This document shows, piece by piece, positions 19,373 to 37,132 of a DNA stretch of 37,132 nucleotides. Below the pieces are notes generated by a model that saw only the letters and a list, made by a program, of their open reading frames with translations, did no database searches and was not told where the DNA came from. Position numbers and translations under genes: made by a program. The first letter of the stretch is position 1, and each line of letters opens with the position of its first letter. Source of the DNA: Desulfurococcales archaeon (lineage in GTDB: Archaea > Thermoproteota > Thermoprotei_A > Sulfolobales > Fervidicoccaceae); NCBI GenBank assembly GCA_027014955.1, contig JALWDA010000113.1:1-37132 (forward strand), written 5' to 3'.

Positions 19373-19376
19373 GCCT

Positions 19377-20120
19377 CTACACCTCAACAGGTTCTCCCAG
19401 GTATACCTCGACCAGCAGGGGGTCCTTCATAACCTTCTCCGGAGGCCCCTCTAGGATTAGCCTCCCCTGGTGCATTACTACCACCCTCTCAGCGAAGGCC
19501 GTAACCGCTCTCATGAGGTGCTCCACGAGAGCCACCACGGCTATGCCCTTTTCCCTCTTAACCCTCTTGATGGTCTCCACCACACGGTCCACATCACGGG
19601 GACTCATTCCCGCCATCACCTCGTCCAGGAGAAGCAGGCTGGGTTCCATAGCCAAGGCCCGCGCCATTTCCAGGAGCTTTTTCTCAACTACCGTCAGACT
19701 ATGCGCGGGGGCGTCCTCTTTTCCCCCAAGGCCAACCAACCTAAGGGCGTCCCGGGCCCTCTCCAGCGCCTCGTCGACGTCTAGCTGGCCCCCGCGGGCG
19801 CCGAAGAGAGCACCTATGGCAACGTTCTCCTGAGCGGTCAGCGAGCCCCAAGGGCGGGGTATTTGGAAGCTTCGGGCTATACCCATACGGGCTCTCTTGT
19901 AAGGGGGGGTCCGTGTGATGTCCTGCCCTTTGAAGAAGATCTCCCCCTCGTCAGGCGTGTATACTCCGTTTATCAGGTTGAACAGCGTGGTCTTCCCGCT
20001 ACCGTTGGGGCCTATTATACCCAGGCTCTCACCCTCCTCCACCACGAGACTGACCCTGTCAACCGCGACTATTCCCCCGAACCTCTTAGACACCCTCTCC
20101 AGCCTCAGTAGCTCGGCCAT
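19377..20120 (-). CDS. livG: Branched-chain amino acid type ABC transporter ATPase LivG
   Basis: Walker A GPNGSGKTT, the LivG-type RSFQIPRPWGSLTAQENVAIG, and Walker B SLLLLDEVMAGMSPRDVD with the switch His in VALVEHLM. The C-loop reads SLTVVEKKLLEMARAL, so the Gly-Gly of LSGGQ is missing. Degenerate C-loops are common in LivG, but this one lacks both Gly. ATG 20120 is preferred (GGGGGTGG about 9 nt upstream); GTG 20126 is possible. It overlaps nothing at its start but is 22 nt from livM. Confidence 0.92.
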   Translation of the reverse strand: MAELLRLERVSKRFGGIVAVDRVSLVVEEGESLGIIGPNGSGKTTLFNLINGVYTPDEGEIFFKGQDITRTPPYKRARMGIARSFQIPRPWGSLTAQENVAIGALFGARGGQLDVDEALERARDALRLVGLGGKEDAPAHSLTVVEKKLLEMARALAMEPSLLLLDEVMAGMSPRDVDRVVETIKRVKREKGIAVVALVEHLMRAVTAFAERVVVMHQGRLILEGPPEKVMKDPLLVEVYLGEPVEV

Positions 20121-20142
20121 CCCCACTAACCACCCCCTTGTA

Positions 20143-21144
20143 CTACGTGAGGAGCTCCCTCAGGCGGGGGTCTTTGACTCGTTCCCTGACATAACCCATG
20201 AGCCCCTTGGGAAGAGCGACCACGACTGCCAGGAGTATCGGCGCGAGGAACAGGAGCTGGAGACCTGGTTTTATAACTCCTAGGAAGTAGTTCATGGAGC
20301 CGTAGAACAGGCCCCCAATTATGGGGCCAAGCAGGGTGCCCGGGCCGCCGAGCATGACCATTACAATCGCCTCAACGGTATAGTGTATGTTGAAGACGTG
20401 GGCGGGCTCGACGTAGCCTCCCTTGAGGGCCCAGTTGGCCGCCCCCAGCAGGCCCCCTATGCCCGCGCTTATGGTGAAGGCCATTACTTTGTACCTGGTC
20501 ACGTTTATACCGAGAGCGCGGGCAGCGTCCTCGTCCTCCCTTATCGCCTGGAGCGCGTAGCCCACGCGCGTTGATAGTATCAAGGCCGTTATCATCACCG
20601 CGGTTATTCCTATAAGAAGAAGGGCTAGGTCTGCTAGGCCTGTCATTATGAAGTTTGCGGTCTCCCTCCCAAAGGTCGCTCGGAGCTCCCTCACGATTAT
20701 AACGCCCTCGCTGCCGCCCACGAGATTGGCCCCCTCTATCAGGTACCTCACCCCCTCGTTCACGCCAATTGTCGCTATAGCGAAGTAGGCCCCCCTAAGC
20801 CTAAGTGCTATGGCCCCCACCATGCTGGCGAGTGCGACGGACAATGCCACCGCCAGCAGGAAGCCTACTATGATGCTGGCCCACCCCAGCTCGTAGAGGC
20901 TCTCAACGGCAAGCGCCATGCCGTAGGCCCCCATGGCGACAAAGGCCACGTATCCGAAGTCTATGTAGCCCGTCATCCCCATGAAGATGTTGAAGGCCTG
21001 GGCCAGTATCATGTAGAACATGAGTGTCGCTATAAGCTGGCTGTAGTGGGGGAATGCCAGGTATAGCACGCCTAAGATAATGTAGGCGGCCAGCGTCAGC
21101 CTTGCCTTCCTCAGGGCCCTCCTCACCGCGTTTGTGAAAACCAT
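20143..21144 (-). CDS. livM: Branched-chain amino acid type ABC transporter permease LivM
   Basis: Integral membrane permease with about 8-9 helices. Diagnostic LivM segments: FNIFMGMTGYIDFGYVAFVAMGAY, ALRLRGAYFAIATIGVNEGVRYLI, TRVGYALQAIREDEDAARALGINVTRYK (the EAA-like ATPase contact loop) and VMLGGPGTLLGPIIGG. I chose ATG 21144, 7 nt after GGAGGTGAT, a complete anti-SD match that also contains the livH stop. The longer GTG start (21156) would lie inside that SD. It is coupled to livH by this overlap. Confidence 0.94.
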   Translation of the reverse strand: MVFTNAVRRALRKARLTLAAYIILGVLYLAFPHYSQLIATLMFYMILAQAFNIFMGMTGYIDFGYVAFVAMGAYGMALAVESLYELGWASIIVGFLLAVALSVALASMVGAIALRLRGAYFAIATIGVNEGVRYLIEGANLVGGSEGVIIVRELRATFGRETANFIMTGLADLALLLIGITAVMITALILSTRVGYALQAIREDEDAARALGINVTRYKVMAFTISAGIGGLLGAANWALKGGYVEPAHVFNIHYTVEAIVMVMLGGPGTLLGPIIGGLFYGSMNYFLGVIKPGLQLLFLAPILLAVVVALPKGLMGYVRERVKDPRLRELLT

Positions 21145-21152
21145 TCCCGCTA

Positions 21153-22040
21153 TCACCTCCCGAACAGCCCCTTTGGCCTCACCAGGAGAATCACGAGCAG
21201 GAGAGTGAAGGCAATGAAGCGCGTCAGCACGAGTGGCTGTACCCCCTCAATTCCGGTGAGGACAACGTATGAGACGTTCTCGAAGAGGCCGAAGAGCACG
21301 CCCGCTATGAAAGCGCCGCCAATAGAGCCGAGCCCCCCCATAACGGCTATCACGAAGGCCTTAAGTGTGAGGATGGCTCCCATGTAGGGGTTTATGCCAA
21401 CCGGGTTGTAAATCGCGAGAAGGCTGCCGCTGGCAACAGTTATGGCTATGCCTATCGAGAAGCTCAGAGCGTATATCCTGTCAACGTTTATACCAACTAC
21501 GAGGGCCCCTTCCCTGTCCTGCACAACCGCTCTTATGGCGAGGCCCAGTTTGGTACGGTAGAACACTACATAGTGGAACAGTAGTAGTAGAAGGGCAAGC
21601 CCAGCCGCTATGAGTTTTGACGCGTAGATGGATACTCCCCCTATCTCGAGCCTCGCCACCTCCCAGCTGAACCCCCTGTAGTCTGAAGTCCAGGCCATCC
21701 GGGCGGCTTCTTGGAGCAAGAGGCCCATGGCGAATGTTGCCAGGAGGCTGGCCATCTCGGGGGCGTCTATGACCCTCCTTACTACGGGATAGTAGAAGGC
21801 CAGACCCAGCAAAGCACCGATTGCCAGGGAGAAGGGAAGGGAAAGCACAGGGTTTAGGCCATAGAGGGTGAAGAACCAGTAGGTCGTGTAGGCTCCTATC
21901 ATCATGAAGGCTCCATGGCCGACGTTTACAATCTTGAGCACTCCGAATATCAGGCTAAGCCCTGCGGTCGCTATGCCGTATATTACTCCCAGCAACGCGC
22001 CATATAGCAGCGTTCCCACAACTAGGTCTGCGAAGGGCAA
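21153..22040 (-). CDS. livH: Branched-chain amino acid type ABC transporter permease LivH
   Basis: Membrane permease with about 8 helices. LivH hallmarks: GVIYGIATAGLSLIFGVLKIVNVGHGAFMMIGAY near the N-terminus, KLGLAIRAVVQDREGALVVGINVDRIYALSF (ATPase contact loop) and FVIAVMGGLGSIGGAFIAGVLFGL. TTG 22040 is preferred because GGTG lies 6 nt upstream and the protein then starts just before the first helix. The frame opens at GTG 22073 without an SD. The 127-nt gap to livK shows no obvious separate promoter. Confidence 0.92.
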   Translation of the reverse strand: MPFADLVVGTLLYGALLGVIYGIATAGLSLIFGVLKIVNVGHGAFMMIGAYTTYWFFTLYGLNPVLSLPFSLAIGALLGLAFYYPVVRRVIDAPEMASLLATFAMGLLLQEAARMAWTSDYRGFSWEVARLEIGGVSIYASKLIAAGLALLLLLFHYVVFYRTKLGLAIRAVVQDREGALVVGINVDRIYALSFSIGIAITVASGSLLAIYNPVGINPYMGAILTLKAFVIAVMGGLGSIGGAFIAGVLFGLFENVSYVVLTGIEGVQPLVLTRFIAFTLLLVILLVRPKGLFGR

Positions 22041-22166
22041 AGTCTCCACCCCGAGGTGCAGGGCCCGGGTCACATCATGTCAAATTGACCAGACGCTTAA
22101 CCAGCCCGTAGTATGGAAAAAACTGGCCATGGCGCAGGTCATTCGAAAAAGGTTAGGAGAAAGAGC

Positions 22167-23465
22167 TCATCCTTTCTCGCTCCAGGGTGGGAGGGGGTAT
22201 ATGGGCTCGGCGTTGGCGGCCTCTGGAGGCCATATTATTACCTTGCTACCCGACTGCCACTGTCCCAGTATCATGTCATGGCCTATCTGGAGCCCGGTTT
22301 CGGGGTCTATCTTTAGCTTTCCGAAGAACGTCTGTATCTGCAGGTTGTTCATGGCCTTCCTCACGGCATCCGTGTCGGTTGTTCCTGCCATCTCCAGCGC
22401 TTTTGCTAGCATGAGGACCGCGGCTCCCCCTCCTGCGGCGTGGTAGCTTGGCTTGAGGCCCTGTTTCTGGAACCTGGACTCGGCCACCGACGTGAAGTAT
22501 TTGAGGAACTCGTCTATCGTGGGACCGTACCACTCGTATCCCTCGGGAACCTTGTCAGGGCTGTACTTTACGCCCATCTCCCACTGTGCTGGGTAGGTGA
22601 TGCCGTCGGCGAGGGAGCCAAGTGCTTCGTAGAACTTTGGAAGTGCTGGGGCCACTAGTATTGATACTAGCTTGGCGTTTATGTTGAGCTCGGCAAGTTG
22701 CTTGGCGAGGAGCTGGCCGTCCTGGAAGTGCCCTCCTCCTATTATTATATCGGGCTGGCTCGCGGCCAGTTCCTGTAGTATGGGGGTCAGGTCGCTAACA
22801 TCTGCCGGGTAGCTCTTGTAGAACACGACCTGGAAGCCCAGCTGCTCGGCATACTTCCTCGCCCCCTCGGCAACGGTGCGTGAGAACTCGTTCTCCTTAT
22901 AAATTATTGCAACCTTCTTGGCGTTGGGGTCTGTCGCCTTTACGAAGTCCAGGGCGCTGGTAAGATACCTGCTCCCGGGTGTATAGACCTGTACCACGTA
23001 TTGGTATCCCTGCTGGAATATCTTGTCGCTAGCCGCGCCCTGGGCTATCATGAGGACGCCGTTCTTGTCAGCTATTGGAGCAGCTTTGAAGGTGAGGCCC
23101 GAGCTGTAGGGGCTTATGAGGAAATCGACCTTGTCCTGGGTTATCAGCCTCTCGGTGAGGCTGATTACTCTGTCGGGGTTGCTCTCGTCGTCATAGTACT
23201 TGAGGTCGAACATGTAGGTTTTGCCACCCACCTTGACGCCTCCCTGCTCGTTTATCCACTCAATAACAGCTAGGGCTCCTATCAGGCTCATCTCCCCTTC
23301 TACGCTATACTTGCCCGTGAGCGAGATGGGCATTCCTATAACGATTTTCTCCTCTCCTGCCCCCTCCTGTCCCCCAGGTGCCCGCATGAGGAAGACTGCT
23401 GCTATTGCAGCTACTATAACAACAAGTACAACGACTGCAACAAGAGTGGTTGAAATACTTTTCAA
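22167..23465 (-). CDS. livK: Branched-chain amino acid type ABC transporter substrate-binding protein
   Basis: Type I periplasmic binding fold (Leu/Ile/Val-binding, amide-urea group). The N-terminus has a hydrophobic helix (VAVVVLVVIVAAIAAVFL) that probably anchors the protein outside the membrane. Then comes IVIGMPISLTGKYSVEGEMSLIGALAVIEWINEQGG (family start), TERLITQDKVDFLISPYSSG (ligand-binding hinge) and KKVAIIYKENEFSR. The substrate is not determinable: leucine-type, amides and aromatic compounds are all known for this family. TTG 23465 is chosen because AAGAGGTG lies 9 nt upstream; the frame extends to 23507. TATA-like AAAAATATTT at 23532-23541. Confidence 0.93.
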   Translation of the reverse strand: MKSISTTLVAVVVLVVIVAAIAAVFLMRAPGGQEGAGEEKIVIGMPISLTGKYSVEGEMSLIGALAVIEWINEQGGVKVGGKTYMFDLKYYDDESNPDRVISLTERLITQDKVDFLISPYSSGLTFKAAPIADKNGVLMIAQGAASDKIFQQGYQYVVQVYTPGSRYLTSALDFVKATDPNAKKVAIIYKENEFSRTVAEGARKYAEQLGFQVVFYKSYPADVSDLTPILQELAASQPDIIIGGGHFQDGQLLAKQLAELNINAKLVSILVAPALPKFYEALGSLADGITYPAQWEMGVKYSPDKVPEGYEWYGPTIDEFLKYFTSVAESRFQKQGLKPSYHAAGGGAAVLMLAKALEMAGTTDTDAVRKAMNNLQIQTFFGKLKIDPETGLQIGHDMILGQWQSGSKVIIWPPEAANAEPIYPLPPWSEKG

Positions 23466-23758
23466 GATTGAGGCACCTCTTGGATTTTTAACACATTGAG
23501 TTATCAATCAGTGAATAAGATTTTACTCTACAAATATTTTTTGATAGAATAATTGCAATATATAGGACAAGTATCCCGCGTTATTAATACTTAACAATAT
23601 CCTGAAAGCCCTTGGAGAAGAATTGCAATCAATGGCAGGCGTATTGGAAAACTTGTTGTAAAATGCAGAACAACAAAAACGAACGCGTGCTACACCCCAT
23701 GGGTTGTTCTGTTTAGAAACCGCCTAGAAAACGCCCCCTCCACGTATGTGGACATAGA

Positions 23759-25006: not shown

Positions 25007-25082
25007 AAAAAACCACAGATAGAACCATTGTGGTACATAAGGTTAGGGGTGCGTCCCCATCCCCTTTTGAGAGGTGAATACC

Positions 25083-28000
25083 TTGAGCCAGCAAAAACTG
25101 ACAAGGAGAGACTTTGTCAAGATAGCTGGTCTCGCAGGAGTCGCTGTGAGCGTGGGTGGCCTCACAAGTGTCCTGAGTCAGAACAACTTCCTACGGGAGA
25201 TCGGTAATCCCCGTCTTGGCTACCCTGAGGAAAGGAGGGGCTGGGAGAACTTCTATAGGAGCATGTGGCAGTACGACAAGGTCGCTAGGTCCACACATGG
25301 GGTTAACTGTACTGGGTCTTGTTCCTGGATGGTTTATGTTAAGGACGGCATAGTAGCCTGGGAGCTCCAGGCTACTGACTATCCCCGCATAAGCGAGTAC
25401 ATTCCCGACTACGAGCCCCGTGGGTGTCCCCGTGGGGCGTCCTTCAGCTGGTACCTCTACAGTGCACTCAGGGTCAAGTACCCCTACGTGCGCAAACCCC
25501 TACTTGACTTATGGAAGGCTGCAAGGGCCGCCTATGGCGACCCGGTAGAGGCCTGGAAGAGCATCGTGGAGGACCCTGCAAAGAGGAGCCAGTATGTCAA
25601 GGCAAGGGGCATGGGCGGCTGGGTTAGGGCAGATTGGGACACAGTGTTAGAGCTGATAGCTGCAGCCCTTGTCTATACCATAAAGAAGTATGGGCCTGAC
25701 CGGATATTCGGCTTCACACCCATACCCGCCATGAGCCCCGTCAGCTACGCTTCGGGCGCGAGGTTTATAGAGCTTATAGGAGGCAGCATGGGCAGCTTCT
25801 ACGACTGGTACGCTGACCTGCCCCCCGCGAGCCCCCAGGTATGGGGCGAGCAGACTGACGTCCCCGAGAGCGCTGACTGGTTCAACGCCGCCTACATAGT
25901 GAACTTCGGCACAAACATACCCCTCACGAGGACCCCTGACGCGCATTTCTTCGTGGAGGTCAGGTACAGGGGCACCAAGATAGTCGTTGTGAGCCCCGAC
26001 TTCAGCGAGCACACCCGGTTCGCAGACGTGTGGGTGCCCATAAAGGCTGGCACCGACGGTGCGTTTGCCCTCAGCATGGCCCATGTTATTCTCAAGGAGT
26101 TCTACGTGGAGAGGCAGCATGAGTACTTCATGGACTATGCTAAGAGGTTTACCGACCTACCCTTCCTAGTCATGCTTGAAAAGCAGAACGGAGTCTACAA
26201 GCCCGGCAAGTTCCTCATGCTATCAGACCTGGCGGAGGAAGAGTACGCTGCACCAGGCTACGCGGAGCAAGAGAACAGCGAGTGGAAGACCCTCGTGTAT
26301 GACGAGAAGAGCGGGAAAGTGAGGCTGGTCAACGGGAGCATTGGATTCAGGTGGGACGGTAGCGGGAAGTGGAACCTGAAGCTAGAGGACCCTGTGACAG
26401 GCGATACCATAGACCCCAAGCTCTCCTTCATAGACGACGCTGACGAAGTGGTGGGAGTCGAGTTCCCGGCATTCGGCGCCGAGTTCGGCCAGTCGGCGAG
26501 CTTCGTTAGGAACGTCCCCGTGAAACGGGTTAAGACAAAGGAAGGAGAAGCCCTAGTCACAACCGTCTTCGACCTCCTAGCCGCACATCTCGGTGTGGAC
26601 AGGGGGCTTGGAGGCGACTATCCCGCAGGTTATGATGACCCGAAGCCCCACACGCCTGCGTGGCAGGAGGAGATTACGGGCGTCAGCAGGGAGCTAGCGA
26701 TAAGAATCGCGAGGGAGATGGCGGACACGGCCCTCAAGACCAAGGGCCGCGTAATGATAATGCTTGGGCCCGGCGTGAACCACTGGTACCACACTGACCT
26801 CTACTACAGAGCCATACTATCCCTCGTGAAGCTTCTGGGCGCTGAGGGCAGGAACGGTGGAGGATGGGCCCACTACGTGGGCCAGGAGAAGATAAGGACA
26901 CTTGTAGGATGGGCGACAGTCGCGTTCGCCCTGGACTGGATAAAGCCGCCCAGGCATCAGAACTCCCCCAGCTTCTACTACGTCCACACGGATCAGTGGC
27001 GCTATGACACTATGGACCTGAGCCTAATAGCGCCCAAGGACGCCGACCTCCAGGGAAGGGTCAAGTGCAGGCACCCAATGGACTGCAACGTCATAGCCGC
27101 TCGCCTGGGATGGCTGCCCTTCTACCCACAGTACAACAGGAGCACCATTGAGCTCGCAAAGGAGGCGAGGAGCAAGGGCAAGGACCCCGTGGAGTACATC
27201 GTGGAGCTGCTGAAGGCCAACAAGCTGAAGCTGGCCATAGAGGACCCCGATGCCCCCGAGAACTGGATTAGGGTCATGTTCGTCTGGAGGGCAAACATAC
27301 TGGGCAGCAGCTCCAAGGGCCACGAGTACTTCCTGAAACACCTGCTCGGCAGCCCCATGTCAGCCACGATGGCGGAGGAGAAGGCGAAGGGCAAGGTCAA
27401 GGAAGTAACGTGGAGGGACCCTGCCCCCGAGGGTAAGCTTGACCTGCTGGTGAGCCTGGACTTCAGGATGGCAACCACGCCCATTTACAGCGATATAGTG
27501 CTTCCAGCCGCGACGTGGTATGAGAAGTACGACCTAAGCATGACTGACATGCACACCTTCATACACCCCTTCACACCAGCGGTTGACCCCCTGTGGGAGT
27601 CTAAGACCGACTGGGATATCTTCAAGGACCTGGCGAAGAAGTTCAGCGAGATAGCTGAGAAGCACTTCCCCGATCCTGTCGAGGATGTGGTTGCAAGGGC
27701 ACTGTGGCACGACACCTCCATGGAGATAGCGCAACCACGAGGTGTTGTGAAGGACTGGAGGAAGGGAGAGACCGAGCCCATACCCGGCAAGACCATGTGG
27801 CACCTAAAGGTTGTGACCCGGGACTACAAAAACGTATACAACATGTACATAAGCCTAGGACCCGGTGCCAAGAAGGTGGGCGGCAAGGGCGTCGCGTATG
27901 ACACGAGCGACGTTTGGGAGGAGCTGAAGGCGGAGAACGGTGCGGTTAAGTGGGACAAGTGCCCCGAGGGATGCCCCAGCCTTGAGAAGGACAAGTACGC

Positions 28001-28898
28001 CGCAGAGACCATACTCGCGCTCAGCCCCGAGGCCAACCCAACTCTGGGCGTAAGGGCATTTGCCAGCCTCGAGAGCAAGACGGGAGTTCCCCTCAAGGAC
28101 CTGGCCCACGAGGGGAGGAGGATAAGGTTTGACGACATAGTGAGACAGCCCCGTAGGGCCTACACGTCTCCACTCTGGAGCGGTATAGAGTCTCCGGGGA
28201 GGACCTATGCGCCCTTCACGCAGAACACTGAGAAGCTGATACCGTGGAGGACACTGACTGGTCGCCAGCACTTCTACATTGACCACGACTGGTTCCTCGA
28301 GCTGGGAGAAGCCCTCCCCGTCTACAAGCCACCACTTAACTTCATAGCGCTGGGCAACCTGGAGAAGACTCTCCAGAAGCTCGGGATAAGCCCTGATGCA
28401 GTAAAGAGCTACAGGATAAACGGCAACGGCGGTAAGAAGCTGCTCCTGCGCTTCCTGACGCCCCACGGCAAGTGGAACATACACAGCGAGTTCTGGGACA
28501 ACCTCAAGATGCTCACATTGTTCCGCGGCGGGCAGGTGGTGTGGCTTAACGATGAGGACGCCAGGTGGGCTGGTATAGGCGACAACGATTGGATAGAAGT
28601 CGTTAACGACAATGGCGTTGTCGTGGCAAGGGTCGCCACGAGCCCCAGGATACCCAAGGGCATAGCGATAATGTACCACGCCCAGGAGAGGCACATCTAC
28701 GCCAAGAAGAGCAAGATAACCGGCAAGAAGGGCGGCATACACAACAGCCCGACCAAGGTGGACCTGAAGCCCACGAAGATGGTCGGAGGATACGCGCAGC
28801 TGAGCTACTTCTTCAACTACTACGGGCCAACGGGGGTGAACAGGGACACCCTCGTTATTGTACAACTCCATGAAAAACTCGGCTCCAACCTGGGGTGA
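25083..28898 (+). CDS. narG: Respiratory nitrate reductase catalytic subunit NarG, Tat-exported
   Basis: Molybdenum bis-MGD enzyme reducing nitrate to nitrite. The N-terminus carries a twin-arginine signal (LTRRDFVKIAGLAG), so the active site should face outside, as in archaeal pNar enzymes. With the TTG start, FS0 cluster ligands are H72, C76, C80 (HGVNCTGSCSW) and C115 (EPRGCPRG). The Mo-ligand aspartate is D241 in SFYDWYADLPPASP, which is followed by the NarG-specific GEQTDVPESADWF. These distinguish it from DMSO reductase or perchlorate-type relatives. Length about 1271. TTG 25083 is preferred over GTG 25074 because GAGAGGTGA, containing that GTG, is its SD. First gene of the narGH-heme-membrane-narJ operon. 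Confidence 0.96.
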   Translation: MSQQKLTRRDFVKIAGLAGVAVSVGGLTSVLSQNNFLREIGNPRLGYPEERRGWENFYRSMWQYDKVARSTHGVNCTGSCSWMVYVKDGIVAWELQATDYPRISEYIPDYEPRGCPRGASFSWYLYSALRVKYPYVRKPLLDLWKAARAAYGDPVEAWKSIVEDPAKRSQYVKARGMGGWVRADWDTVLELIAAALVYTIKKYGPDRIFGFTPIPAMSPVSYASGARFIELIGGSMGSFYDWYADLPPASPQVWGEQTDVPESADWFNAAYIVNFGTNIPLTRTPDAHFFVEVRYRGTKIVVVSPDFSEHTRFADVWVPIKAGTDGAFALSMAHVILKEFYVERQHEYFMDYAKRFTDLPFLVMLEKQNGVYKPGKFLMLSDLAEEEYAAPGYAEQENSEWKTLVYDEKSGKVRLVNGSIGFRWDGSGKWNLKLEDPVTGDTIDPKLSFIDDADEVVGVEFPAFGAEFGQSASFVRNVPVKRVKTKEGEALVTTVFDLLAAHLGVDRGLGGDYPAGYDDPKPHTPAWQEEITGVSRELAIRIAREMADTALKTKGRVMIMLGPGVNHWYHTDLYYRAILSLVKLLGAEGRNGGGWAHYVGQEKIRTLVGWATVAFALDWIKPPRHQNSPSFYYVHTDQWRYDTMDLSLIAPKDADLQGRVKCRHPMDCNVIAARLGWLPFYPQYNRSTIELAKEARSKGKDPVEYIVELLKANKLKLAIEDPDAPENWIRVMFVWRANILGSSSKGHEYFLKHLLGSPMSATMAEEKAKGKVKEVTWRDPAPEGKLDLLVSLDFRMATTPIYSDIVLPAATWYEKYDLSMTDMHTFIHPFTPAVDPLWESKTDWDIFKDLAKKFSEIAEKHFPDPVEDVVARALWHDTSMEIAQPRGVVKDWRKGETEPIPGKTMWHLKVVTRDYKNVYNMYISLGPGAKKVGGKGVAYDTSDVWEELKAENGAVKWDKCPEGCPSLEKDKYAAETILALSPEANPTLGVRAFASLESKTGVPLKDLAHEGRRIRFDDIVRQPRRAYTSPLWSGIESPGRTYAPFTQNTEKLIPWRTLTGRQHFYIDHDWFLELGEALPVYKPPLNFIALGNLEKTLQKLGISPDAVKSYRINGNGGKKLLLRFLTPHGKWNIHSEFWDNLKMLTLFRGGQVVWLNDEDARWAGIGDNDWIEVVNDNGVVVARVATSPRIPKGIAIMYHAQERHIYAKKSKITGKKGGIHNSPTKVDLKPTKMVGGYAQLSYFFNYYGPTGVNRDTLVIVQLHEKLGSNLG

Positions 28899-28904
28899 TG
28901 GGAA

Positions 28905-30332
28905 ATGGTTAGGGCACACCTCTCCATGGTAATGGTCCTGGACAAGTGTATAGGGTGCCACACCTGTAGCCTGGCCTGCAAGAACGTGTGGACCGACAGG
29001 GAGGGCCAGGAGTACGCCTGGTGGAACAACGTAGAGACCAGGCCCGGCGTGGGGTACCCCAAGACCTGGGAGAACCAGGACAAGTACGGTGGGGGCTGGG
29101 TTCTTGAGGACGACAAGCTGAGGCTTAGGCTGGAGAAGGACAAGCACTACAAGCCACCTAGCCTTAACGACTACTACAACCCCTTCGACTACGACTACGA
29201 GCAGCTCTTCACCCAGGAGATACTCGACCAGCAGCCCAGCGCCGATCCCCTGGACATGTACTCCAGGGAGAAGATAGACGTCAAGTGGGGCCCCAACTGG
29301 GACGATGATCTTGCAGGTGCGGACGTTATAGCGCCCCATGACCCCAACTGGAACGGGATTGACAAGCAGATATACCTGAACTTCAAGGACGTCTTCATGT
29401 TCTACCTGCCCAGGATATGCAACCACTGTCTCAACATGGCCTGTGCCCCCGCGTGTCCAAGAAAGGCGGTGTACAAGAGACCCGAGGACGGCATAGTCCT
29501 TATAGACCAGAACAGCTGCAGGGGCTACAGGTTCTGTGGAATAGCCTGCCCCTACAAGAAGATATACTACAACTGGAAGACGGGCAAGAGCGAGAAGTGC
29601 ATATTCTGCTTCCCCAGGGTCGAGACAGGGCAGCCCCCCGCCTGTACACTGTCATGTGTGGGCAAGATAAGATATGTTGGAGTGGTGCTCTACGACGAGA
29701 CCAGGGTGCCCGAAGCCGCTAAGGCACCCGAGGACCAGCTGGTGAAGGCCCAAAGGGAACTCATACTAGACCCCTTCGACCCCCAGGTCATTAAGGAGGC
29801 CCGAGACGCTGGCGTGCCAGAGAACTTCATAAAGGCAGCTCAGGAGAGCCCCGTCTACTACATGTTCAAGAAGTGGGAGCTGGCACTACCACTACACCCC
29901 GAGTTCAGGACCCTGCCCATGGTCTTCTACGTGCCCCCGCTGAACCCCGTGATAACCGTGCTGGACAGGAACAACAAGTACAGCGCCGACTACAACAGCA
30001 TTATACCCGCCATAGACAAGCTGAGGATACCTATAAGGTACCTTGCCAACATGTTCTCGGCCGGCAATGAGGAGGAGGTGCGCAAGTCCCTTAAGAGGCT
30101 GCTGGCGATAAGGGAGTTCTTCCGCCGCATAGAGGTCGAGGGACAGAGCAGGGCAGAGGCCTCCGCTGTGCTCAGGGAGCACGGGCTCACCGTTGACGAC
30201 GCGGACATGATGTACAGGTGGCTCGCTCTGGGAAGGGACAGGTGGGTGATACCCACAAGCAAGAAAGAGCTAAGGGTAACGTTAACCCCTCGTGGAAGGG
30301 GCCCGGGAATGGGAGGCCGCCAGAGGGGGTGA
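28905..30332 (+). CDS. narH: Nitrate reductase Fe-S subunit NarH
   Basis: 475-residue electron-transfer subunit with four ferredoxin-like Cys clusters: C15-x2-C18-x2-C21-x3-C25; C172-x2-C175-x4-C180-x3-C184; C205-x2-Y208-x2-C211-x3-C215; and C232-x2-C235, C247, C251. The third group has Tyr where E. coli NarH has Trp in place of a fourth Cys, so it should hold the [3Fe-4S] cluster. The ATG follows narG by 6 nt with GGTGAT overlapping the narG stop. It has no signal peptide, so it should be co-exported with folded NarG. Confidence 0.96.
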   Translation: MVRAHLSMVMVLDKCIGCHTCSLACKNVWTDREGQEYAWWNNVETRPGVGYPKTWENQDKYGGGWVLEDDKLRLRLEKDKHYKPPSLNDYYNPFDYDYEQLFTQEILDQQPSADPLDMYSREKIDVKWGPNWDDDLAGADVIAPHDPNWNGIDKQIYLNFKDVFMFYLPRICNHCLNMACAPACPRKAVYKRPEDGIVLIDQNSCRGYRFCGIACPYKKIYYNWKTGKSEKCIFCFPRVETGQPPACTLSCVGKIRYVGVVLYDETRVPEAAKAPEDQLVKAQRELILDPFDPQVIKEARDAGVPENFIKAAQESPVYYMFKKWELALPLHPEFRTLPMVFYVPPLNPVITVLDRNNKYSADYNSIIPAIDKLRIPIRYLANMFSAGNEEEVRKSLKRLLAIREFFRRIEVEGQSRAEASAVLREHGLTVDDADMMYRWLALGRDRWVIPTSKKELRVTLTPRGRGPGMGGRQRG

Positions 30333-30339
30333 GTAGTCC

Positions 30340-31272
30340 ATGAGGACCGGTTTTGAGGCCCTGGTCCTATCCATGCTACTGGGTATTGCACTGGCCATAA
30401 GCCTGACGGTAGGCCCCCTTGTAACGGGGCAGGCGCCCGACGTTACAGCCAAGTACATTACGGGCAACCTAGTGCAAGACGCCCAGGCTGCCATGAAGGA
30501 CGTTGCCGTAGAGTACAAGACGGGCCTCACAGCCCAGCAGATCGTATACCCCCTCAGCGACCCCGGGTCCGCTGAGGTCAGCTACAACATCATGCACAAC
30601 GGAACCCACATTGCCTTCTACATAAAATGGAAGGATGAGACAAAGGATGTGCCCATTGGCGATGTGATTGACCAGTTCCCCGACGCAGTAGCGATACAGT
30701 TCCCGGTATTCAAGGGAGAACTACCCTACGTGTGTATGGGTAACACCCAGAACCCAGTCAACATAGTAATGTGGAAGAGCAACGCGGGCGCAGAGGCGCT
30801 GGTATCCGCATCAGCGTATGGAAGGGGACAGGTCCAGAGAGAGGCTCTTCAGATGTTCGAGTCAAAGACCCGCCCCATACACACCGCGCCACCCGAGGAT
30901 CAGATATGGTACAGTGACGCCTACTATGAGAACGGGGAGTGGATGGTGGTCCTAATAAGGCCCCTGGGAAGCACCAGCCCTCTCACCCCCTCTCTCGAGC
31001 CCGGCTCCACCACCAGCATAGTATTAGCGGTGTGGGATGGGGCAAAAGATGAAAGAGGCGGGTTGAAGAAGACTAGTGGTTGGCTGACCGTTGAGCTGGA
31101 GCAGCCCGCAGCGCCAGCCGCGGCAGCCACAGAGACGGTGACCCAGACGAGCACGGTCACCGTGACCGCTCCCGGCGAAGGCGGTGTGCCTGGATGGTTT
31201 GTCGAGTTCGCAGTGGTCATAATAGTACTGCTGGCGCTAGCAGTGGTCTACCTGCTCGCGCGGAAGGGTTAG
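30340..31272 (+). CDS. EbdC-like heme b subunit, membrane anchored
   Basis: 310 residues. A signal peptide or anchor (about 7-28) is followed by an extracytoplasmic domain with the ethylbenzene dehydrogenase gamma/DMSO reductase-family heme b pattern: AIQFPVFKGELPYVCMGN (M133 is the likely axial ligand) and NPVNIVMWKS, later SGWLTVELEQP. A Thr/Ala-rich spacer leads to a C-terminal helix (FAVVIIVLLALAVVYLL) and RKG, a tail anchor. In EbdC the heme has Met and Lys ligands; the Lys cannot be fixed by eye here. It should take electrons from the quinol side and pass them to NarH. The start ATG has GGGGGTGA upstream, overlapping the narH stop. Confidence 0.8.
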   Translation: MRTGFEALVLSMLLGIALAISLTVGPLVTGQAPDVTAKYITGNLVQDAQAAMKDVAVEYKTGLTAQQIVYPLSDPGSAEVSYNIMHNGTHIAFYIKWKDETKDVPIGDVIDQFPDAVAIQFPVFKGELPYVCMGNTQNPVNIVMWKSNAGAEALVSASAYGRGQVQREALQMFESKTRPIHTAPPEDQIWYSDAYYENGEWMVVLIRPLGSTSPLTPSLEPGSTTSIVLAVWDGAKDERGGLKKTSGWLTVELEQPAAPAAAATETVTQTSTVTVTAPGEGGVPGWFVEFAVVIIVLLALAVVYLLARKG

Positions 31273-31277
31273 CGAAG

Positions 31278-32090
31278 ATGGTTTTTTCAAAGGACGTGTT
31301 TTTTTCCAAGCCCTCAGGCAGATATGCATCTTTTTTCCTCTCCCATACCTTCTCTCTATTCCTGCTTTTCCTATACGCACTTGAGCTCCTCTTCAACCGT
31401 ACCCTCATGCGTGTACTCATCTTCATACCCCCCAGTGGTGTCAGGGGCGCTCTTGAGTTCCTTACCTCATACCTAGGTCTCCTTGCGTTGAACGCCACCC
31501 TTGTCCTATCATTGGCCGGTATGTTCCTGGGCCTGGGAGTTGGGGTTGGCGTTATTTTCCTAGGGGGCCTGGTGGCTGATTTTGCTGGTTTGTTCAAGGT
31601 CAAGTACCTCCTCATACCCCTCGCACTTGCTGTTACCTACATGGATCGGAGGCTCCTATGGCCCTCTTTCATAGTGTCGTTGATGGTGTTATCGTCGAGC
31701 TTCACATACCTGTACCTGGGGTGGCTTGTGACCATACTCTGGGCCCTCTACCCGCTTCCCCAAATCATAAGGAGGGGTGTTACTGTAGACAAATGGACAT
31801 ACCTGGCTGTGGCACTCGCCACCATGCTAGCCGCTGGTCTCTTGACAAACCCCTATCATGTGGGCCAGGTTTTCATACTCGCTATGGACATAGTCAGCCC
31901 CTGGGTGCTTCCAGTCGCGCTACTCGCCTATGGACTAGCCCCCCGCTCACGGTTCGCAACGACATTACTTCTCACGGGTCCTGGGCTCCAGCTCTCCAAT
32001 CAGGTCCTTATGCTGGCACTATTCATGATTGAAGAAGCCAATATTTATCCATCTACTACCAATGGGAAAAAGCGGGGTGTTCATGGTTGA
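31278..32090 (+). CDS. Unassigned polytopic membrane protein in the nar operon
   Basis: I do not recognise this 270-residue protein. It has about 7-8 hydrophobic segments: FFLSHTFSLFLLFLYALELLF, a stretch at 63-105 rich in Gly (GMFLGLGVGVGVIFLGGLVA), then 110-122, 130-160, 174-190, 197-220 and 228-250. Histidines near membrane segments are H23 and H194 only, not the four needed for NarI's two hemes. The position (after the heme b subunit, before narJ) implies a nitrate reductase membrane partner or quinol site, or a nitrate/nitrite transporter, but it lacks the NarK family signature. The ATG at 31278 follows the previous stop by 5 nt; the frame is open further upstream but overlaps the heme subunit. 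Confidence 0.75.
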   Translation: MVFSKDVFFSKPSGRYASFFLSHTFSLFLLFLYALELLFNRTLMRVLIFIPPSGVRGALEFLTSYLGLLALNATLVLSLAGMFLGLGVGVGVIFLGGLVADFAGLFKVKYLLIPLALAVTYMDRRLLWPSFIVSLMVLSSSFTYLYLGWLVTILWALYPLPQIIRRGVTVDKWTYLAVALATMLAAGLLTNPYHVGQVFILAMDIVSPWVLPVALLAYGLAPRSRFATTLLLTGPGLQLSNQVLMLALFMIEEANIYPSTTNGKKRGVHG

Positions 32091-32620
32091 AGAACACATT
32101 CAAGACACTTTCCGTGCTCCTCAGCTATCCTGGGGAAGCCCACAAGGTCCTGTACAAGTACAAGCAGGACCTAGGCGAGATACTCAGTGACGAGGACCCC
32201 CGGATAGCTAGGCTCATCATGGAGTTCATGGACAGGACCGACCCCTACAACATTGACGAGAAGTACGTCAGCCTCTTCGAGATGCCCCCCAAGTGCCCAC
32301 TATACGCGCACGAGCACCTGCCCAACCAGAAGGAGAGCGAGGTGGGCAACTTCCTGCTGGAGATAAAGATATTCTACAAGGCAAAGGGCCTCGACATTGA
32401 CGCTTCGAAGGAGATACCCGATTACCTCCCCGCTATGCTTGAGTACATGGCGAACCTTCTCCCTGACGACGAGGGCCTTGCCCGCTCGTTTGCGAGGAAG
32501 TACTTTAAGCCCTGGATTGGAAAGTGGGCAGAGTGCGTCAAGAAGGAGGGGGGAGAATATGCGCTCCTTGCAAAGGCTGTCATGATGGCCATTGACAGGG
32601 TCCTGGGGGACGAATCATAG
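32087..32620 (+). CDS. narJ: Nitrate reductase assembly chaperone NarJ
   Basis: 177-residue all-helical chaperone of the NarJ/TorD family, which holds apo-NarG until the cofactor is inserted and checks it before export. Features: TLSVLLSYPGEAH near the start, YVSLFEMPPKCPLYAHEH, and the NarJ-specific EIPDYLPAMLEYMANLL (about 108-124). The start is TTG 32087, overlapping the stop of the membrane protein by 4 nt, with GGGGTG 7 nt upstream. Its 3' end overlaps that of the convergent HTH-10 regulator by 6 nt. Confidence 0.9.
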   Translation: MKNTFKTLSVLLSYPGEAHKVLYKYKQDLGEILSDEDPRIARLIMEFMDRTDPYNIDEKYVSLFEMPPKCPLYAHEHLPNQKESEVGNFLLEIKIFYKAKGLDIDASKEIPDYLPAMLEYMANLLPDDEGLARSFARKYFKPWIGKWAECVKKEGGEYALLAKAVMMAIDRVLGDES

Positions 32621-33250
32621 CTCCGTGAGGGCCCTCCACACGGCCTTCGCCTCGGCCCTCCTCAGCACCTCGGCCACGCTTGACTTGGACATGTTAAGCA
32701 TCCTGGCAAGGTCGTCAAGGTTCACCTTGCGGGGGACATCATAGTATCCCGCCCTTACCGCTGTTAGGAGGACCCTCTCCTGGAGGGGGGTCAGGTAGGC
32801 CTTGTTGAAGGGCTTCTCTATTGTGATCTCCACGTTCTCCTTGCCCAGTAGGGTCTCAAAGTACTCGGCTATCTGGCGGGCCTTTTTACGGGTTGTGAGT
32901 ACAGTTAAACGAGAGACGCCGTTGGGGGCAACAGTGGTTCTGAGGAATATCATCTCCGGGTCATAGGAGCTGTACTTGCACACCTCGCAGGTCTCTGAAA
33001 GGACGAGTGCTATGTAGGAGTTTTTAGAGAGGCGGCCCCCCTTTATGCGGAGGTTCCTCGAGTTCCTCAGGACCTCCACGGCCTCTCTTAGTTTCCTGTT
33101 GTCGCCCTTCAGCTTAACAAGGTGAGTGGCATGGTTGTCGACGACCCTGTTCTCCAGTATTTCAATCTCGACGTCGACTGGCTTCTTCTTTAGCTCCTTC
33201 AGCACGTTGCAGAACCTGTGCTTGAAAATTATGTTTATTAGGACGACCAT
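32615..33250 (-). CDS. Bat-type HTH-10 transcriptional regulator with CxxC
   Basis: 211 residues. The C-terminal HTH-10 domain is clear: LTPLQERVLLTAVRAGYYDVPRKVNLDDLARMLNMSKSSVAEVLRRAEAK (about 153-202), as in haloarchaeal Bat and related regulators. The N-terminal domain is unassigned but resembles the input part of such proteins. It has a C88-E-V-C91 pair, C14 and several His, which could bind metal or respond to redox state. It converges on narJ, so it is a likely controller of nitrate respiration (inference). ATG 33250 with AGGAGA 6 nt upstream; TATA-like TTATTTATATG at 33326-33336. Confidence 0.82.
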   Translation of the reverse strand: MVVLINIIFKHRFCNVLKELKKKPVDVEIEILENRVVDNHATHLVKLKGDNRKLREAVEVLRNSRNLRIKGGRLSKNSYIALVLSETCEVCKYSSYDPEMIFLRTTVAPNGVSRLTVLTTRKKARQIAEYFETLLGKENVEITIEKPFNKAYLTPLQERVLLTAVRAGYYDVPRKVNLDDLARMLNMSKSSVAEVLRRAEAKAVWRALTEL

Positions 33251-33371: not shown

Positions 33372-34844
33372 CTAATCTGCAGGGGAAACGTTGAACCGGG
33401 ACTCGGCCTCCCCTAGGACCTCATCGAACAGGCGGAGGGCCTCATCTATCTCCTCGTAGGTTATTGTCAGTGGGGGTGACAGGGCAAACCTGTTACCATA
33501 GTAGCCGGCCTTCTTCACCAACATGCCCTTTTGAAGAAGCCTCATTGTTATCCACGAGGTCTCCTTCGAAGCTGGCTTCTTGCTACGCCTGTCCCTCACG
33601 AGCTCCAGGCCCATGTACAGGCCCTTGTTCTGGAACTCTCCTATAAGAGGGTGCTTTTTCTCAAGGTCCTCGAATCCCTGTCTAAAGTACTTGCCCTTCT
33701 CCTCCGCCTGGCGAGCTAGGTTTTCCTTCTTAATGACCTCTATGGTGGCCAGGGCGGCTGCCACCCCCAGCATGTATCCTGCAAACGTGGTAGAGTGCGC
33801 TCCGGGGCCCCAGGAGTCCATTATCTCCCTCCTGCCAACTACAGCTGCGAAGGGGAGACCGTTTGCTATTGACTTTGATACTAGGAAGAGGTCTGGCTCC
33901 ACGCCGGGGTAGTGGTCCACAGCCCACATCCTTCCCGTGCGGGCCCACCCGGTCTGTATCTCATCTAGGGCGAAGAGAATGTCGTGATCGCGGGCCAGCT
34001 TGTAGAGCGAGGGGAGCCAGGTGTCGGGGGGTATTATGTACCCCGCGGCACTCTGGTAGGGCTCTATGAGCATGGCTGCTATGTTGCATATTCCCTTAGA
34101 CGAGTCCACCAGCCCGTAGTACTTAGAGCTTAGCATGTAGTCGACCTGGTGGAGACACTCCTCTGCACACGATTCGCAGTCCCGGGCCGTTTTCGAGCAG
34201 GGGCACCGATAGCAATAGGGGAAGGGTATCCTAACAATGGCGGTGTCGGCGGGGGGCACGGGGTATATCTGGGACCAGGTGCTGGTGCTGTGGGTGAGGG
34301 GGGCGGTTCCTATGGTTCGGCCGTGGTAGTCCCCCCACTGGGTCATTATGTACTGTCGGCCCGTGTATATGCGGGCAAGCTTTATGGCAACCTCGTTGGC
34401 GTCGCTCCCAGTCACCGTGTAGAATACCTTCTTGGGGAAACCCCCCGGGGTTATGCTGACGAGCTTCTCGCCAAGCCTTATCCTGTCCTCGGTAAGCATC
34501 TCGCTGTACTGGACTATCTTCTCGAACTGCCTGACAATGGCCTCCAGCACAGCTCTCCTGTGGTGGCCCGCGTTGCTCACGGCGAAGCCCGCCATCATGT
34601 CTATATAACGCTTCCCATCCACATCATAGACTACGGCGGTTTCCTCCGCCCTTTCTATTATGGGTGGGGCCTCGTACATGCTGAAGGGCATCGAGCCCAG
34701 GCTCTCGACCTCTAGGGCCCTTTTTATGACCTCCCTGCTCTTCTCCCCATAGCCCCACTCCTCGGCTGCCTCCAATATCCTGTCGGGATCGGGCCTGTAT
34801 TTTAGGAGTTTCTCGGAGAAGTCCAGCCGGGGTGGTTTGTCCAA
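33372..34844 (-). CDS. Class III PLP aminotransferase with Cys-rich insert
   Basis: Fold type I omega-aminotransferase of about 490 residues. In frame numbering from GTG 34856: PLP phosphate site GSDANEVAIKLAR (150-162), DYHGRT (176-181), PLP-ring Asp in FALDEIQTGWARTGRMWA (295-312), Schiff-base Lys328 in FLVSKSIANGLP, and TTFAGYMLGVAAALATI. Family members act on 4-aminobutyrate, ornithine, dialkylglycine or amino acid racemisation; the substrate is not settled. An insert has C215-x2-C218-x-C220...C227-x2-C230-x3-C234, a denser set than the CxxC...C pattern I recall in Pyrococcus relatives. TTG 34844 is chosen because GGTGA is 5 nt upstream; GTG 34856 is the alternative. TATA-like TTGTATAAAG near 34887-34897. 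Confidence 0.88.
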   Translation of the reverse strand: MDKPPRLDFSEKLLKYRPDPDRILEAAEEWGYGEKSREVIKRALEVESLGSMPFSMYEAPPIIERAEETAVVYDVDGKRYIDMMAGFAVSNAGHHRRAVLEAIVRQFEKIVQYSEMLTEDRIRLGEKLVSITPGGFPKKVFYTVTGSDANEVAIKLARIYTGRQYIMTQWGDYHGRTIGTAPLTHSTSTWSQIYPVPPADTAIVRIPFPYCYRCPCSKTARDCESCAEECLHQVDYMLSSKYYGLVDSSKGICNIAAMLIEPYQSAAGYIIPPDTWLPSLYKLARDHDILFALDEIQTGWARTGRMWAVDHYPGVEPDLFLVSKSIANGLPFAAVVGRREIMDSWGPGAHSTTFAGYMLGVAAALATIEVIKKENLARQAEEKGKYFRQGFEDLEKKHPLIGEFQNKGLYMGLELVRDRRSKKPASKETSWITMRLLQKGMLVKKAGYYGNRFALSPPLTITYEEIDEALRLFDEVLGEAESRFNVSPAD

Positions 34845-34940
34845 TGGCCTCACCACCGTTTCATGATAACATTATGTCTTGTCCTTCTTTATACAATCTT
34901 ACAGGAGTAGTAATTAATACTTCCATGCGCTCTTTGAAAC

Positions 34941-35663
34941 CTATATGACAAGCAAGTACCTGAGCTGGGGGAAAGCCTCCTTGGCCTTCTCTAAGATATC
35001 CCGGCTCAGAGCCACAACTGACACCGCGGTAACCTCTCCCCCCTGGACGTGCGCGAGCCTCTGCAATGAGGTTAGGGTGCAGCCCGTCCAACTCACGTCG
35101 TCAACGACGATCACGCGGTCGTCCTTCGACACGGCCTTAGGGGGGAGGGTTATGTAGGCCCGGGACTTGGGCTCTCCACTATAGCTGTGAAGGGGGGTGC
35201 AGGGCTCGGTCAGGCCCCGGGGGACAAAGGTGTTCCTAAGCGCGTAGACAATCTTCTTACCCTCCAGCATCGAAATTATTGTGGCTATGGATATTCCTCC
35301 CCCCTCCACGGTGAGTATCTTGCTGTACTTCTTCGGGTCCAGGCCCCTCTTCAGCTCGATGGCGGCCCATACTGCTAGGTAGGGTCTCGTGGAGAGGACG
35401 TTGTTGAGCTCTGGGCCCTCCATTATGCCCTCCCTAAGGGACTTCTCCAGCGATGCACGGGGGTCGATCAGCTTCGAGAGACGGGGTAGCAGCTCCCTTA
35501 TACGCTTGATGCTCGGGTAGAGCTTGCCTGTGGAGTATTTGCTCAGGGTAGGCATGTCTATTCCCAGTTCCTGGGAGACCCTGGAGAGACCCAGCTCGTC
35601 CTTGGCCAGCCTTAGCAGGGAGTTGAACAGCAGTTTTTCCTCCAACATGCTCAACCCGGTCAT
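34941..35663 (-). CDS. HTH-phosphoribosyltransferase regulator (GfcR type)
   Basis: 240 residues. An N-terminal Cro/XRE-like HTH (LSRVSQELGIDMPTLSKYSTGKLYPSIKRIREL, about 26-58) is joined to a type I phosphoribosyltransferase fold with the PRPP loop RVIVVDDVSWTGCTL (183-197) and a flexible hood. This is the layout of archaeal GfcR/PurR-like regulators, where PRPP or a sugar phosphate acts as a ligand rather than a substrate. In Haloferax, GfcR controls sugar catabolism. Divergent from a sugar kinase, it probably regulates it. The ATG at 35663 has GGGAGGG upstream and a TATA element (35705-35713) giving a leader of about 20 nt. In-frame ATG at 35648 is an alternative. Confidence 0.85.
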   Translation of the reverse strand: MTGLSMLEEKLLFNSLLRLAKDELGLSRVSQELGIDMPTLSKYSTGKLYPSIKRIRELLPRLSKLIDPRASLEKSLREGIMEGPELNNVLSTRPYLAVWAAIELKRGLDPKKYSKILTVEGGGISIATIISMLEGKKIVYALRNTFVPRGLTEPCTPLHSYSGEPKSRAYITLPPKAVSKDDRVIVVDDVSWTGCTLTSLQRLAHVQGGEVTAVSVVALSRDILEKAKEAFPQLRYLLVI

Positions 35664-35704
35664 CGTCCCTCCCTTTTTGCGTCTCCTGGTATTTTCTTGT
35701 ATGG

Positions 35705-35724
35705 TATTTTATAACACATGTGTT
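35705..35724. promoter_or_regulatory. Divergent promoter with two-way TATA element and 12-bp palindrome
   Basis: TATTTTATAA (35705-35714) reads as a TATA box on the plus strand and as TTATAAAATA on the minus strand. The perfect palindrome AACACATGTGTT (35713-35724) touches it. Predicted starts are near 35738 (kinase) and 35685 (regulator). The palindrome lies between TATA and start on the kinase side, a classic repressor position, and in the BRE position on the regulator side. The GfcR-like protein is the obvious binder (inference). Confidence 0.6.
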
Positions 35725-35742
35725 TGGGCCCTGGCTGTAAGT

Positions 35743-37132
35743 ATGACGGGTGTTGAAATATATATTTTAATGATGTTCTCAGAAAAACCTTCTACAGGGG
35801 GAGAAGCCCTGCCCACACTCTTCGCTGGACTGGACCTGGGTACGGGCAGTGTGAAGCTAGAGTGCTATACCCTGACCTTTGAAAAGTTATGTGACGCTTC
35901 CCAGCCTATAGGTCTGAAGACCTGGGAAGATAGCGGCAGGCTCTACGCAGAGCAGGACCTTGGGGAGATAATCAACACATCCGTGAAGTTACTAAGACTC
36001 GCGGTAAAGAGAGCCGAGAAGAGAGGGTTCGACACGCTGGTGATAGGCCTCTCGGGCCAGTCCCCCGGGCTTGCACTTATAGACAAGGAAGCGAGGGCCC
36101 TCCACCCCTACATATCCTGGATGGATAGGAGGGCCGTTGAAGAGGCCAGGCTGATCGAACAGGAGGTCGGGTGGGAGAAGATAAGGAAGCTCACCGGCCT
36201 GAGGCCTGACCCGCTTTTCACGGGACCCAAGCTTCTCTGGGTAAAGAAGAGGAAGCCCCAACTCGTTGAGAGGGCCTACATGGCTGGGCAGCTGAAGGAT
36301 GTCCTCTACTACGTGTTAACGGGTAAGAAGCTGACTGACCACACACATGCCAGCGAGACCCTCCTATACGGCCTGGAGAGGGGAGGGTGGGAGCCCCTAC
36401 TGCTTGAGAAGAGTGGAGTCGAGGACCTCGGCCTTCTCCCCAGTATAGAGGAGTCAATACACTTGGAGGACGCCACGATAAACGCCCGGGGGCTCCTTGA
36501 AGCGAGTGGAGGTATGAGGATATACGTGTCCCTGGGGTGCGTGGACTCCGTCTGCTCACACATGGTGACAGAGTCGGGGCGGCGAGACATTGTCGTGGAC
36601 ACCACTGGCAGCTCCACCTGCCTCAACTTCACGGTCGACGAGCCCCGGGGCGACCCCTGGGGGGCCTTCGAGGTCTACAGGCACGCTATCGCGGGTAAGT
36701 GGGTGGCCGAGGCCTCTCTCCCCACGGGAGGCAGGGGTCTCGAGTGGCTCTTGGAGACCCTTAGCCTCTCCTGGGATGCCCTAGAGGGTCTTCCCAAGGG
36801 TCCCTCCGAGCTTCTCTTTCTCCCCTTCCTTGAGGGGACACGTAGCCCCGACTGGCGCCCAGGTATGCGGGGGCTTGTATACGGTCTTAGCCTCTCCACT
36901 AGCAAAAGTGACCTCATCAGGGCCTATATGCAGGGGGTGGCCCTTTGGGAGAGGGTTATTGTCAGAAAGGCTGAGGAGTGGAGGGGTAGGGGGTTCAGTC
37001 TCATGAGGGTGGTCGGCGGCGGCTCCAGGATTGGCTTGTGGAACTCTAGAAAGGCTGGAATCGTCGGCCTCCCTGTGGAGAAGATGCCCTGGATTGACGC
37101 GAGCGCCCTCGGCGCCGCGGTTACGGGCATGG
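35743..37132 (+). CDS. FGGY-family carbohydrate kinase, xylulokinase-like, 3' end outside window
   Basis: The frame is open to the window end (463 codons visible). FGGY features: phosphate-1 loop FAGLDLGTGSVK near the start, LSGQSPGLALIDKEARAL with ISWMDRRA, the catalytic-base segment LGCVDSVC, adenosine/phosphate-2 loop DTTGSSTCLNF, and a xylulokinase-like LPFLEGTRSPDWRPGMRG with VVGGGSRIGLWNSRKAGIVGLPV and ALGAAVTG. Related kinases act on xylulose, gluconate, glycerol or ribulose; the substrate cannot be decided. ATG 35743 suits the TATA at 35705 (short leader) but adds about 26 residues before the core. ATG 35770, and CTG 35809 after GGGGGAG, are alternatives. It diverges from the GfcR-type regulator. 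Confidence 0.88.
   Translation, partial: MTGVEIYILMMFSEKPSTGGEALPTLFAGLDLGTGSVKLECYTLTFEKLCDASQPIGLKTWEDSGRLYAEQDLGEIINTSVKLLRLAVKRAEKRGFDTLVIGLSGQSPGLALIDKEARALHPYISWMDRRAVEEARLIEQEVGWEKIRKLTGLRPDPLFTGPKLLWVKKRKPQLVERAYMAGQLKDVLYYVLTGKKLTDHTHASETLLYGLERGGWEPLLLEKSGVEDLGLLPSIEESIHLEDATINARGLLEASGGMRIYVSLGCVDSVCSHMVTESGRRDIVVDTTGSSTCLNFTVDEPRGDPWGAFEVYRHAIAGKWVAEASLPTGGRGLEWLLETLSLSWDALEGLPKGPSELLFLPFLEGTRSPDWRPGMRGLVYGLSLSTSKSDLIRAYMQGVALWERVIVRKAEEWRGRGFSLMRVVGGGSRIGLWNSRKAGIVGLPVEKMPWIDASALGAAVTGM

Follow-up and report, generated by a model that had tools for sequence, protein, structure and literature searches.

In the pur operon repressor PurR of Bacillus the N-terminal part is DNA-binding, and the PRTase domain acts as a sensor of PRPP or a related phosphorylated metabolite. 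To our knowledge, few archaeal regulators of the PRTase fold have known targets. GfcR, encoded by pyrE1 in Haloarcula hispanica, is described as an activator of sugar degradation genes (PMC11519228). With regard to divergent archaeal promoters, transcription in both directions from one TATA box, with about 49–50 bp between the starts, has been reported, with in vitro evidence, for Pyrococcus furiosus (PMC6640164).

We have analysed a window of 37,132 nt, which is the entire contig C113 of the draft genome of a heat-loving archaeon (G000; 1.42 Mb, 71% complete), and compared it with a sister species of the same genus, the Desulfurococcales archaeon MAG G001. Towards its end, an HTH-PRTase regulator of 240 aa (34941–35663, reverse strand) stands back to back with an FGGY carbohydrate kinase (35809–37132, forward strand), whose start is probably a CTG and whose 3′ end is cut by the contig end; the last part of the kinase opens contig C159 of the same genome. 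The GC content of the window is 0.558, compared with 0.499 over 217,869 bases from three other contigs of this draft genome. Two further gene sets of the window were named from translations only: a large molybdopterin-oxidoreductase-like set at 25074–32620, including a 1274-aa protein with RRDF near its start, an iron-sulfur-like subunit, further subunits and a chaperone-like protein of 177 aa, and a branched-chain amino-acid-type ABC transporter set at 18647–23507 with two ATPases, two permeases and a binding protein.

Kinase, aminotransferase and their conserved gene order

The kinase carries both Pfam domains of its family (FGGY_N, 3e-34; FGGY_C, 8e-25), as do xylulokinase (5vm1, 2itm), glycerol kinase (2zf5) and gluconate kinase (3gbt), and a GxVDS stretch is kept in 10/10 aligned members. 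However, it reaches no equivalog cutoff in its truncated window copy: without the C-terminal end, the top NCBIfam model is the xylulokinase TIGR01312 (XylB) at 187 bits, against a cutoff of 380, and the likewise truncated copy scores 128 bits against a cutoff of 590 with the glycerol kinase model. A profile of 10 members ranked gluconate, glycerol and xylulose kinases almost equal; given this ranking and the scores below cutoff, no substrate is assigned to the kinase.

On the other side of the regulator lies a class III PLP aminotransferase (33372–34856, reverse strand), which matches NCBIfam class III aminotransferases without reaching a cutoff. It is preceded by a TATA-like element, GTATAAAG, at 34887–34894 (reverse strand), which is the same in the sister species and probably provides the gene with a promoter of its own. 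The nearest PDB chains are isoleucine 2-epimerase (5wya, 4ysn), a class III aminotransferase/amino-acid racemase matched strongly at 279 bits, and amino-acid racemases; unlike these, the aminotransferase of the locus belongs to a separate group, 65–97% identical, found beside the kinase. Directly downstream of it, and in the same place in the sister species, 32615–33250 encodes a separate 211-aa protein, HTH-like by reading.

Searches of 214 genomes of the order indicated that these genes travel together. At a threshold of 1e-45, the kinase profile found 46 genomes, of which eight score 496–823 bits and the next 272, and the aminotransferase search found eight at 1e-150 or better. The two sets of eight are identical (G000, G001, G059, G151, G152, G094, G155 and G159); they represent four genera and two families and are not eight independent cases. 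The regulator profile, with 18 genomes at 1e-20 or better, placed a regulator just before the aminotransferase and on the same strand in all eight. In five of them the kinase immediately precedes the regulator in the same orientation, overlapping it by 4 bp (G094, G155) or 8 bp (G059, G151) or ending 9 bp apart (G152); it is divergent in two (G000 and G001, one genus), and in G159 it lies on another contig. The pairing of kinase and regulator pointed out in the earlier note is thus borne out as a conserved neighbourhood among the order genomes. G082, of the same genus as G059, showed no kinase and no aminotransferase when these thresholds were applied; its regulator paralog is a different one and has other neighbours.

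In a draw of 398 genomes from the phylum, the aminotransferase was found in six at 1e-140 or better, three of them outside the order (G269, G408 and G480), and in each of these three a related kinase is the gene next to it. No regulator was seen near the aminotransferase on the 8.3, 13.5 and 7.9 kb available in these genomes, two of the stretches being limited by contig ends. As kinase and aminotransferase stand side by side in three distant genomes too, this pair is the stable core of the module; the regulator is seen within the order only, and the divergent arrangement is a local one. The co-occurrence of the two enzymes across distant archaea, read from their sequences, points to a small pathway that may not have been described so far. 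A literature search found no report of a kinase–aminotransferase–regulator module by title or abstract start, which, being restricted to open-licence full text, is weak evidence.

The genes further out vary. A phosphodiesterase (Pfam GDPD) and an importer lie beyond the kinase in G159; in G094 and G155 the surroundings of the module include an amino-acid permease and a phosphoesterase-like gene below the Pfam cutoff, and reading alone suggests similar genes close to it in G152 and G269. In G159, two carbamoyltransferase-like genes (L093, 1597–2649 and 4860–5942) and an amidohydrolase were observed just upstream of the regulator–aminotransferase pair.

Our model, which we hold with moderate confidence, is that of a kinase–aminotransferase module with its own PRTase-fold regulator, in which the divergent genes have separate core promoters and the regulator acts at 35683–35728 in response to a PRPP-type signal. 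It starts from gene families, gene order, conservation and element positions as observed, and extends to promoter use, operator, ligand and sign of regulation, which we infer. The regulator would be transcribed from the TATA box at 35707–35714 (reverse strand), and the kinase from that at 35759–35766 (forward strand), with CTG 35809 as its start codon. For the regulator, the most likely binding site is the conserved block 35683–35728, a putative operator; in this position the regulator would cover its own TATA box and start site, amounting to autoregulation. The same site would lie about 30–75 bp upstream of the kinase TATA box, where activation by an archaeal factor is possible.

An alternative is that the regulator acts chiefly on its own gene and that of the aminotransferase, the kinase being a pathway neighbour whose promoter the regulator leaves untouched. 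The regulator–aminotransferase order is found in 8/8 genomes, including G159 with its kinase elsewhere, and the similarity between the promoters of kinase and regulator does not exceed background, with 114 of 130 background promoters scoring at least as high. Against it, kinase and regulator form one collinear unit in 5/8 genomes, and we regard this alternative as possible but somewhat unlikely.

Promoters of the divergent pair

Under the preferred model each gene has its own core promoter. The TATA box of the regulator, TTATAAAA, predicted from its sequence at 35707–35714 on the reverse strand, falls in a block with 45/46 identical positions and includes a self-complementary TTATAA at 35709–35714. 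A second TATA-like element, TATATATT, at 35759–35766 on the forward strand, is the probable kinase promoter, judging from the conserved block and the 16-bp A/T-only run (35756–35771) around it; this stretch lies 43 bp before CTG 35809, and runs of at least 16 bp occur four times in the window, compared with a shuffle mean of 0.06.

Aligned with the sister species, block 35683–35728 shows one difference in 46 columns and holds the regulator TATA box together with the palindrome and the 9-bp direct repeat discussed below, which makes this island over the regulator promoter the most likely place for an operator. It is followed by 35729–35749 with eight differences in 21 columns, by 35750–35774 with a single one in 25, which holds the element at 35759–35766, and by 35775–35808 with 11 in 34, part of which is an indel compensating for that at 35774. 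At third codon positions, both genes differ from the sister at a rate of about 27%. Compared with this rate, taken as about 27.5%, 35683–35728 (P 6.9e-06) and 35750–35774 (P 0.0034) are slower and the other blocks are not, with third positions assumed to be neutral and block boundaries picked by eye. Because there are two conserved islands, each with a TATA element, and a diverged stretch between them, separate promoters are favoured, and it is most likely, on this comparison, that each gene has an ordinary promoter of its own.

Transcription in archaea generally starts about 26 bp downstream of the TATA box. From the element at 35759–35766, the kinase transcript would be predicted to start near 35789, with a leader of 20 nt containing the Shine-Dalgarno-like sequence GGGGGAG (35797–35803, forward strand), 5 nt before CTG 35809. 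CTG starts are rare; a CTG occupies the same place in the sister species. Alternative in-frame ATGs occur at 35743, 35770 and 35773, of which 35743 and 35770 are retained in frame in the sister. Eight of the nine other aligned kinases start 4–11 residues before GxDxG, the ORF of L129 being longer, and CTG 35809 is located 6 residues before this motif in the window kinase. In addition, two compensating indels relative to the sister, at 35774–35796, shift the reading frame between them, so that coding upstream of about 35797 is disfavoured. The N-termini of the orthologs, the Shine-Dalgarno sequence and the second TATA element therefore favour CTG 35809 as the probable kinase start over ATG 35743. 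The separation of 79 bp between the genes, as originally given, holds with the ATG 35743 start; the favoured CTG gives a gap of 145 bp.

The earlier note had instead proposed that a single TTATAA core, at 35709–35714, can serve both genes; the kinase would then be read from ATG 35743 on a nearly leaderless transcript, which is a coherent reading. TTATAA is indeed self-complementary, ATG 35743, at a distance of 29 bp from it, is also in frame in the sister, and two-way use of one TATA box has been reported in P. furiosus (PMC6640164). The second conserved TATA-like run nevertheless suits the kinase better, with its Shine-Dalgarno sequence and an ortholog-matching start, the compensating indels change the peptide encoded from 35743 to 35809, and divergence is lineage-specific (2/8); we consider a shared core distinctly unlikely. 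The description of this promoter as unusually compact does not stand either, as two-way TATA boxes with starts about 50 bp apart are reported as widespread in P. furiosus (PMC6640164). In promoter terms, the locus is most likely an ordinary divergent pair.

Operator candidates and the prs neighbour

The palindrome AACACATGTGTT (35713–35724) and the TTATAA core, described in the earlier note as abutting, are both present; they overlap by two bases. The window contains 10 perfect 12-bp palindromes, and at least one arose in 3.1% of mono-nucleotide shuffles of the 145-bp gap. Allowing up to two mismatches, the palindrome occurs four times within the window, an excess over the shuffle mean of 0.51 that is not confirmed by the genome-wide control: over the whole genome, the palindrome has 25 sites per strand with up to two mismatches and the reversed control has 32, and an exact copy is found a single time. 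The sister species has AACACGTGTGTT at this place, the perfect symmetry being gone and the centre altered on one side. Hence AACACATGTGTT, which had been suggested as the operator, was discarded as a regulon-wide one for its absent genome enrichment and lost symmetry. The direct repeat TGGTATTTT-6-TGGTATTTT (35687–35710), over the regulator TATA box and the bases just downstream, has a shuffle chance of 1.5% and is also found in the sister; with a single occurrence in the genome it was likewise rejected as a regulon-wide operator, and is at most a local site.

In the sister species, the PRPP synthetase gene prs directly follows the kinase, and G000, continued on contig C159, has the same order. 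In G094 a gene recognised as prs-like by reading is located on the other strand, about 6 kb from the kinase and beyond it. Beyond prs in G000, on the other strand, are ABC importer genes and a gene resembling a glycerophosphodiester phosphodiesterase, as recognised by reading and by G159 matches. Assignment of the kinase to a pentose pathway was considered and dropped: the prs neighbour is its one support, and elsewhere the neighbours are a GDPD-type phosphodiesterase and ABC importer (G000, G159), a permease or other ABC genes. As a separate observation, the ABC binding protein of G000 (C159; L108, 4945–6000) is 90% identical to that of G159 (C116, 7404–8456), a genome of a different family, which reflects either recent transfer or a binning problem; the phosphodiesterases beside these proteins are about 40% identical. 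A second, diverged PRPP-synthetase-like gene, with 36% identity, was also noted in G000 (C23, 14591–15388).

Local alignment of the regulator and prs promoters gave a score of 31, reached by 0/130 background promoters of the same genome and by 1/500 shuffles. With the prs promoter as query, 1/130 background promoters reached the score, and in the sister species 5/500 shuffles did so for the corresponding comparison. This likeness, one among several comparisons made, may serve as a lead towards a regulon. No likeness was detected between the regulator and aminotransferase promoters (92/130 background promoters as high or higher), or between the kinase promoter of G094 and its prs or aminotransferase promoters (286/500 and 191/500 shuffles as high, respectively). 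A motif common to the regulator, kinase and aminotransferase promoters was thus not found by promoter alignment against background. The sequence GTGTT, spotted post hoc, stands just before the TATA element in the regulator, kinase and prs promoters. Among the 132 genes whose upstream region is 50 bp or longer, two have it in this position, including the regulator; the kinase is outside this set, as its longest ORF overlaps the regulator. As a common element it is only a hint. The wider pattern TGTGTTN{0,5}ATAAAATA picked out the regulator in G000; in G001 it matched the prs promoter and one further site, unrelated to these genes.

It is tempting to speculate that a PRPP-sensing regulator controls both prs and an undescribed kinase–aminotransferase pathway, forming a feedback loop, a suggestion that we advance as doubtful. 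If true, a PRPP sensor would set both PRPP supply and the use of the substrate feeding it.

The regulator among PRTase-fold proteins

As a single sequence, the regulator matches Pfam HTH_3 and PRTase, each below the gathering cutoff, and the PRTase half becomes clear with a profile of 11 members, so that both parts are found in one protein. The PRPP-site signature, EGGG plus DDxxW(T/S)GxT, is kept in 11/11 aligned members, which thereby have the PRPP-binding loop of PurR/GfcR-like regulators; in a more distant paralog of G082, DG replaces the DD of the signature. Against the PDB, the best match of the 11-member profile is the Bacillus pur operon repressor (1p4a/1o57, 1.4e-12), over the PRTase part only (profile 92–231). 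For the N-terminal part of the profile, the matches, to two small HTH proteins and to the transposase of an IS element, were all weak. In a single-sequence AlphaFold model, residues 1–80 are helical with good confidence and the PRTase half is poor (mean pLDDT 53.3). The HTH-PRTase regulator and FGGY kinase first recognised from the letters of the window are real genes. Judged by its matches, the former is a PurR-like PRTase-fold transcription regulator, of a kind already known.

Since its profile best matches the Bacillus pur operon repressor, PRPP is a reasonable guess for the ligand by analogy, and the probable signal sensed by the PRTase domain, as in that repressor, is PRPP or a phosphorylated metabolite related to it. 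It is very unlikely that the HTH-PRTase protein is a phosphoribosyltransferase, for adenine or another substrate, that has remained an enzyme instead of being a regulator: its nearest NCBIfam models bear the name adenine phosphoribosyltransferase and it retains the PRPP-site signature, but it has an N-terminal HTH, its best solved relative by profile is a repressor and it stays below the cutoffs of the phosphoribosyltransferase models.

The contribution of this analysis is a kinase–aminotransferase module defined from genomes, together with a possible regulator–prs link. A regulator with likely targets defined in this way (kinase, aminotransferase and perhaps prs) would offer a testable case, and the pair, standing side by side in distant Thermoproteota, would mark a pathway whose substrate could be found with the two purified enzymes.

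Among described proteins, NCBIfam NF006328 / PRK08558 resembles the regulator over its full length (2.5e-22), residues 5–230 being collinear with positions 5–226 of the 238 in the model, and 11/11 aligned members match; at 79.7 bits, against a cutoff of 184, the regulator is a distant relative outside the curated membership rule. To the orotate PRTase-like model PRK02277, which we take to be the family of GfcR, it shows a weak match of 15.7 bits versus a cutoff of 115. With Bacillus PurR (1p4a, 1o57, 7rmw), the top PDB match of its profile, it shares the combination of a PRTase-fold part with an N-terminal part predicted to bind DNA, but the genes adjoining the archaeal regulator are not those of purine synthesis. 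With GfcR of the haloarchaea it has in common the character of an archaeal PRTase-like regulator tied to sugar metabolism (PMC11519228).
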